The notes beneath the pieces are model-generated. The model made no database searches. It was not told the origin of the DNA and was given only the letters and a program-made list of their open reading frames with translations. A program made the translations under genes and the position numbers. This document shows positions 10,392-12,424 of a DNA stretch of 64,000 nucleotides, in pieces. The stretch lies in assembly GCA_030836185.1 (NCBI GenBank), contig JAURQH010000067.1, forward strand, positions 1-64,000, read 5' to 3'. Positions within the stretch are counted from its first letter, which is position 1. Each line of letters begins with the position of its first letter. The DNA comes from Planctomycetota bacterium. GTDB lineage: Bacteria > Planctomycetota > Planctomycetia > Planctomycetales > Planctomycetaceae.

Positions 10392-10425
10392 AAAAAAAGA
10401 CGGCCCCGGAAAATCCGAGGCCGTC
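10392..10425 (-). terminator. Rho-independent terminator of the Cys-repeat gene
   Basis: On the minus strand a GACGGCC...GGCCGTC hairpin (10399-10425) with an inner CGG/CCG extension is followed directly by seven T. It lies 30 bases after the stop of the Cys-rich HEAT protein gene. Confidence 0.9.
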
Positions 10426-10454: not shown

Positions 10455-11846
10455 TTAGCGAGCCAAACCGAAGAGGTTAGCCAATCCGCTCTTGCTTACA
10501 GCAGAACGAATGTTCAATTTGCTCTTGAAGTTTGCTTCTTTGTCAGCTGGTGGAGCTGGAGGAGCAGATTTCTTCATAGGAGCAGATTTTGCAGGAACTT
10601 CGTGAGAAGCTGGTGCACAACCAGGTGCACAAGAATCGCCACAAACGTCGCCGCAAGTGTCACAGCAGCCATCAACGATTTCATATCCGCAAGCTTCCAA
10701 AGCTTCTTCTGCTTGTTTACGGACATCTTTGTCGCAATCGCCGAGAGCACAAGTCAAAGCGGCCACAACTTCAGGAGTGCAGCAGCATCCGTGCTTACGG
10801 ATTTGATCGCCGATTTCGTCGGCAGCTTCTTTACGAACACGTTCATCAGTATCGTTCAAAGCGTAAACCATGGCACAGATGATTTCTGGATTGCAACGAC
10901 AGTTGTAGTCGTCACCCAGTTCATCGATGGCATCTCTACGATCTTTGGCGTAGCAAGCAGTTTGCGATTGGTAGATCAGCTTGGCGATTTCGCAAGGATC
11001 AGCATCGCAACATTCGGTTCCACAGCAGCTGTCGCCACATGTGTCACCGCAGCTTGAGCCGCAGAGTTTCTTACCAAACAGTTTGCTGAAAAGTCCGCAA
11101 CCTTTTTTGCTTGTGCAGCAAGTTGAACCACAACTGTCGCCACAGGCGTCAGCAGGAGCACAACACTCAGCGTCAGCAGGTGCACAGCAGTCGGCAGGAG
11201 CACAGCACTCAGCGTCAGCAGGAGCACAGCAATCAGCTGGAGCACAAGCGTCATCGGCACAACATTCAGCAGGTGCACAGCAATCAGCAGGTGCACAGCA
11301 TGAAGATTCTGCAGGAGCACAGCACTCAGCAGGAGCACAGCATTCAGCGGCAGCAGGTGCACAACACTCAGCGGCAGCAGGAGCACAGCAATCGGCAGGA
11401 GCCGGGCAGCAGCACTCAGGAGCACACTCAGCAGGAGCACAGCAAGCAGCTTCAGCAGGTGCACAACAAGCGGCGTCAACAGGTGCACAGCAATCAGCTG
11501 GAGCACATGCATCGTCACCACAAGCATCAGCAGGAGCACAGCAAGCGGCGTCAGCCGGAGCACAGCACTCAGCAGGTGCACAACCACTGTCCGGGCAGCA
11601 AGTATCGCAACAAGGCGGCTTGATGTTCGAACATTGGCGTTGGTAAATGTAAGTCTTCGTTGTACAAGGCCGTGCAATGGTTGGCTTACAACATGTCGGT
11701 TGACATGTTTCGGCACAACCGCAGCTCTTCTCAGCCCCGCATCCTCCGCCCTTCATGAGATTACTAAGCAAACCACCGGCATCAGCGGCGGAGATGCTCA
11801 TCATCAGGGCGGCCACAGCAGCGGCACACATTCTGAAGAGTTTCAT
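10455..11846 (-). CDS. Secreted Cys/Ala/Pro-repeat protein with HEAT repeats
   Basis: A 463-residue exported protein. Residues 1-23 are a signal peptide ([23 protein letters not shown]). Residues 24-88 are Cys-rich with CC and CxC pairs. Residues 89-235 are a low-complexity array of about fifteen CCAP[AV][DE] units, broken by GDDACAPAD and [11 protein letters not shown] second Cys-rich stretch follows ([13 protein letters not shown]). About residues 290-385 form two to three HEAT-like helical repeats ([45 protein letters not shown]), and the end is Pro/Lys-rich. AAGGAGA at 11856-11862 supports the start, and a strong terminator follows. So many paired cysteines in an exported protein suggest a disulfide-linked envelope or extracellular structure; planctomycete cell walls were historically described as rich in proline and cystine. 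That role is inference; no homologous enzyme domain is present. Confidence 0.85.
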
Positions 11847-12424
11847 AAAATCGAGTCTCCTTCCCTTGGGAACTATTGTTCGGCCGTCCTTACCTAATAT
11901 TTATGCCGGTCTGAAATATCGTGATTCAAGAACGAGTCTCTTCTCTCGTTCAGTTGCGGCCTCCTGCCGCATATTCGTGTCATTTCCGACAGCGTCTTTT
12001 GAGTCCGACGGCATGACCATTTCTGGTCTGACTTCTCCAAGATGGTCATTGCCGGGGTGATCTCCTCACCACCCACTAAGTCCAACGGCAACAGCATCCA
12101 GATAGAGAAGACGGTCTCTGGGACTGAAGGAGATATCGGCGTGTTCCCAAGAGTGCTTGAACCTCTCAAGTCCCTATTCTGTTAAATGGTTACGACGATT
12201 GTTGTACTGATCGTGACGATTGGTCCGGTTAGGAAAACTTTGCGGGCATCCAATGCCAGAAGCTTTTTGCTAACCGTTACATCTTCTGAAAGATGCGTAA
12301 TTTGGATAGGCGCGGGCAAAATAGGGGCGAGCTGACCGCATGCGCCGATTGAGACCTTGAAGAGTCCGAAAGCAACACCTTTACAGAGTGTGTAAGTTGC
12401 TCCTGCCGGGATGCGAAGATTCTT
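11847..12424. other. Intergenic region, no supported gene
   Basis: Two open frames on the minus strand (11894-12169, and 12277-12606 which runs into the epimerase) have no recognisable sequence pattern and I do not support them. The stretch must hold the promoter of the Cys-repeat gene; a weak candidate is TTGAAT (11924-11929) with CATAAA (11900-11905), 18 bases apart on the minus strand. I see no structured RNA. Confidence 0.4.

Follow-up and report, generated by a model that had tools for sequence, protein, structure and literature searches.

Organisation of the locus

The window, a 64,000-nt stretch of planctomycete DNA, carries an ORF at positions 10455–11846 of the reverse strand, strand and coordinates that proved exact on checking. 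It encodes a predicted exported Cys-rich HEAT protein of 463 aa, in which cysteine makes up ~18% of the residues (82 in total, 81 of them beyond the signal peptide). The anatomy described here was derived from alignments of 16 full homologues and 21 HEAT cores, and all features listed lie on the reverse strand. A Sec-type signal peptide, already proposed by an earlier sequence-only reading of this DNA, is predicted at residues 1–23 (11778–11846), with cleavage between ADA and GG, and every full-length homologue has a signal-peptide-like N-terminus. Next comes a conserved N-module (residues 36–84; 11595–11741; CGCAxTCQPxCCKPTIxRPC...YQRxCSxIKPPCC), in which C48, Q49, P50, C53, K54, P55, P60, C61, Q69, R70, P78, C79 and C80 are invariant across the 16 homologues. 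A CCAPA/E repeat arm (residues 89–236; 11139–11582), modelled by AF2 with low confidence, leads to an amphipathic LF spacer (residues 249–261; 11064–11102), a HEAT core of three repeats, or six helices (residues 284–388; 10683–10997), and a C-terminal tail (residues 428–463; 10458–10565; PAPP...LANLFGLAR). Parts conserved across homologues are the N-module, the HEAT core, the 'LFGL' tail and, outside the reading frame, a 17-nt leader.

The LF-type motif occurs at residues 25, 251 and 454, and averages 1.3 per homologue against 0.03 in shuffles. The tail, with the consensus PAPPEEPxAYFPSR...LAxLFGL among homologues, was used as a search profile. At E<1e-3 it was found in 12 of the 38 panel genomes, each match falling on this Cys-rich family, HEAT-less homologues included; genome G066 had two copies. 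One marginal match outside the family was to a stop-containing frame in genome G070. Long antisense ORFs across the repeats were rejected as composition artefacts.

Expression signals and genomic context

Directly 5′ of the ATG lies the conserved leader TCCCAAGGGAAGGAGAC (11855–11871), which includes a Shine–Dalgarno sequence, AAGGAG. Downstream is an intrinsic terminator (10399–10425) with a 12-bp stem, nine GC pairs and a T run, so that the strong ribosome-binding site and terminator of the sequence-only reading are both borne out. The leader matched at a single site in the window, even when three mismatches were allowed, and, of 162 loci fetched, 52 contained one exact copy each of the 16-mer CCCAAGGGAAGGAGAC; in the homologues examined it stands just 5′ of the start codon, and close variants precede the HEAT-less homologues. 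Conservation of TCCCAAGGGAAGGAGAC across genera extends beyond the needs of the Shine–Dalgarno sequence alone. Variants such as TTCCTTGAGAAGGAGA could fold into a small hairpin covering the Shine–Dalgarno sequence.

The high expression that had been suggested receives moderate support. Codon usage is the most ribosomal-protein-like among the 42 window genes (0.091, versus a mean of −0.055 and a standard deviation of 0.030), but the rank falls to eighth with the codons for Cys, Ala and Pro excluded, so the score comes partly from repeat codons.

A synteny comparison found no gene neighbours conserved beyond the genus, so that the surroundings of the gene give no clue to its function. Given this and the simple terminator, the gene appears monocistronic. 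Elsewhere in the window, the gene for a 23S rRNA-intervening-sequence-type protein (PF05635; 6584–6940, reverse strand) is flanked on one side by a MoxR AAA gene and on the other by a DUF58 gene.

HEAT core

Pfam HEAT_2 (PF13646) aligned with residues 289–384 at 36.2 bits, above the curated cut-off of 27.7, in agreement with the HEAT-repeat domain first read from the sequence. For a 133-aa core construct (residues 278–410), AF2 predicted a three-repeat alpha-alpha solenoid of six helices with a pLDDT of 86.7, while in the full-length model confidence was low everywhere except in the HEAT region. No other strongly conserved part of the protein is as long as the core, which has a mean column identity of 75% over the 21 aligned cores. 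Foldseek matched it to alphaRep HEAT proteins (TMq ~0.62–0.65), which it also matches in sequence. The fold search returned mainly designed HEAT binders, and as the best solved matches are artificial, they carry no functional meaning.

Eight cysteines within residues 298–386 are invariant (298, 316, 318, 354–356, 371 and 386), and all of them are placed by the AF2 model in loops, whereas the variable cysteines 324 and 366 of the same region are placed in helices. The modelled loop placement fits exposed edge cysteines open to bonding.

Repeat arm and cysteine spacing

The sequence-only reading counted about fifteen CCAP[AV][DE] units. There are indeed 15 CCAP units, although only 13 follow that exact pattern, and the protein has 27 overlapping CC pairs in all. 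Shuffling the mature protein gave a mean of 0.23 CCAP and a maximum of 4, which puts the repeat far above chance.

Among 37 homologues, the arm ranges from 69 to 205 aa and its repeat type differs between species (CCAPA, CAAPACAP, CGPACAPK and CGNGNG), with cysteine at ~23% throughout. Adjacent cysteines in these arms favour a spacing of 1 or 4–8 and avoid 2 and 3: the counts are 3 for CxC and 11 for CxxC, compared with ~211 and ~160 expected from shuffled arms, and they are descriptive rather than a statistical test since the 37 arm sequences are related. The near absence of spacings 2 and 3 disfavours both metallothionein and CxxC redox readings. The mature cysteine count is even in 19 of the 37 homologues and odd in 18; full pairing within the chain is therefore not required.

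Distribution and relatives

The sequence-only reading had proposed a search for the repeat across planctomycetes. Within the protein's own family, probably Planctomycetaceae, 125 of 150 genomes gave a homologue (106 of 119 among the well-completed ones), usually in a single copy, and 138 of 170 gave the HEAT core. A search of the class produced matches in 75 genomes, each of them from this family, and no homologue was retrieved from ~214 genomes of other families. The sole match outside the family in the phylum search was weak (E 3e-12) and spanned just a repeat stretch. Genus g23 (G066; loci L100, L101 and L102) has three HEAT-bearing copies rather than one.

The gene is absent from genus g4 of the same family. 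Since g4 is nested among gene-bearing lineages in the YTV gene tree, the protein is not indispensable. The combination with HEAT repeats, previously considered unusual for a surface protein, turned out to be the rule within the family. Three homologues lack HEAT (G007, G061 and G050; loci L155, L156 and L157) and consist of signal peptide, Cys arm and tail; the N-module is recognizable in G007 and G061 and vestigial at most in G050. Arm and terminal parts can thus exist without HEAT. With g4 amid gene-bearing lineages and the HEAT-less G050 unplaced, the YTV gene tree leaves gain versus loss of HEAT unsettled. The G050 homologue has repeats of the KKGLFSCFSKKDKGCAPAGCAP type.

The source genome also encodes a HEAT-less paralogue that combines a signal peptide with CCAPE repeats. 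Its parts lie at the ends of two contigs, C5 (L111, G000:C5:1-3000) and C40 (L004), a break that presumably reflects failed assembly of the repeats.

Possible roles

Reports from the 1980s describe planctomycete envelopes as rich in cysteine and proline and stabilised by disulfides. On the sequence evidence, the protein is probably a lineage-specific structural component of the envelope, exported, monocistronic and disulfide-cross-linked, that would act alongside the YTV wall proteins found throughout the class. Once the protein is exported, its vicinal CC pairs, whose members rarely bond mutually, would each join different partners, and the arms would form a disulfide mesh with their own copies and with other wall proteins. 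Partner proteins could dock on the HEAT domain and on the LF motifs, and the loop cysteines would lock this contact.

Several observations argue for an envelope role. The gene is near-universal and usually single-copy in one family, with none detected in other families; cysteine density is kept while the arm varies in sequence and length; and cysteine spacing favours 1 and 4–8, the invariant cysteines of the HEAT region sitting in loops. The mixture of odd and even cysteine counts, the HEAT-less homologues and the HEAT-less CCAPE paralogue in the same genome point the same way. There is also chemical precedent. The high cystine and proline of planctomycete walls invoked by the sequence-only reading is in line with a Pro- and Cys-rich, disulfide-stabilised envelope protein of Planctomyces relatives (PMC3035269), and YTV proteins provide a second parallel (PMC8567305, PMC5287468).

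Against an envelope role stand the absence of the gene from g4, the lack of neighbours conserved outside the genus and the missing oxidation machinery. Neither VKOR (PF07884) nor DsbB (PF02600) was matched in the 98%-complete source genome, in searches that were positive in control genomes. This raises the question of how such Cys-rich exported proteins would be oxidised: either an oxidase that goes unrecognised acts on them, or oxidation is non-enzymatic, or the thiols serve something else. A more far-reaching version of the envelope reading is rather unlikely. It would make the protein a second, Planctomycetaceae-specific wall scaffold in which HEAT bricks, through their edge cysteines, and CC-rich arms are held in a covalent disulfide mesh, oxidised without DsbB or VKOR and controlled through the conserved 17-nt leader, and which would partly explain the Cys- and Pro-rich envelope chemistry recorded for Planctomyces relatives in the 1980s.

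The main rival is a function in the matrix, a stalk or an appendage, where the Cys arm would be a crosslinkable thread of a holdfast or fibre and HEAT would bind another fibre protein, outside the wall proper. Planctomycetaceae such as P. limnophila do make stalks and fibres (PMC5394234), and the wide variation in arm length is as in fibrous proteins. We nevertheless regard this as rather unlikely; the absence of the gene from g4 may count against it.

Still less probable is a regulatory or redox-sensing scaffold, with HEAT as the active part that binds a periplasmic partner and cysteines that switch on oxidation. HEAT domains in general bind proteins, and the strong conservation of the core would suit such a role, but three homologues retain the other parts without HEAT, more than 60 cysteines are excessive for a switch and the arms contain hardly any CxxC redox motifs.

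An extracellular or periplasmic metal-binding protein of metallothionein type, chelating soft metals through its CC pairs, is equally improbable: the 81 cysteines of the mature chain and the CC pairs known from some metallothioneins favour it, but CxC and CxxC are far too rare in the arms, the gene is core in the family rather than patchy and, having no conserved neighbours, it does not travel with metal-resistance genes. Of the two fates that the sequence-only reading gave the paired cysteines, a cross-linked network or metal binding, structural cross-linking is accordingly the better reading and metal is disfavoured.

Comparison with known envelope proteins

In the literature searched we found no earlier description of this Cys-rich HEAT family, which therefore appears to be new. 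By fold and sequence its core resembles HEAT and alphaRep-type solenoids in having three two-helix repeats. It differs from them in being part of an exported protein, in its Cys-studded loops and in the Cys-rich arms on its flanks.

Chlamydiae, of the same superphylum, have envelope proteins of the OmcA/OmcB type that are cross-linked by disulfides, and they possess DsbA/DsbB (PMC6752827). The likeness would be one of working in outline; unlike in chlamydiae, no DsbB was found in the source genome. We know of no CCAP repeats or HEAT domains in chlamydial Cys-rich proteins, and a Pfam search of the window protein at E<=1 gave no match to chlamydial Cys-rich outer membrane proteins, returning HEAT-type models and one weak, non-significant match.

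Among candidates for the Cys- and Pro-rich envelope material of planctomycetes, only the YTV proteins are, to our knowledge, well known. They are recognised as Cys-rich major wall proteins (PMC8567305, PMC5287468), and one of them is among the essential genes of P. limnophila (PMC10632474). YTV (PF07639) was present in 192 of 199 class genomes, and the source genome encodes two YTV-like proteins (L113:1069-2355, reverse strand; L077/L112), one of them confirmed by a PF07639 match at 3e-25 (P0002). One YTV-like protein of this genome also has CAAP/CCAP stretches. Both kinds of protein, then, are found in this genome, and both are Cys-rich, repetitive, planctomycete-specific and exported, as predicted here. 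They also share a short start after the signal peptide, CGA...CQPxCC, a weak resemblance; HHalign of the N-module against the YTV N-terminus scored 17.6, more than any of 30 shuffles (maximum 13.7), but with a probability of 7% the match is not significant and no homology is claimed.

The wall role of YTV proteins is supported by wall proteomics. The window protein differs from them in several ways: it has no PF07639 match at E<=1, its repeat is CCAP, it possesses a HEAT core and an LF tail, and it is confined to one family while YTV is class-wide. By these features it is a family separate from YTV and limited to one lineage. Conserved, usually single-copy and lineage-wide, the Cys-rich HEAT family is a further candidate for the same envelope material, and its member in the window probably serves, through disulfide links, as a building block of the tough protein envelope of these budding planctomycetes.
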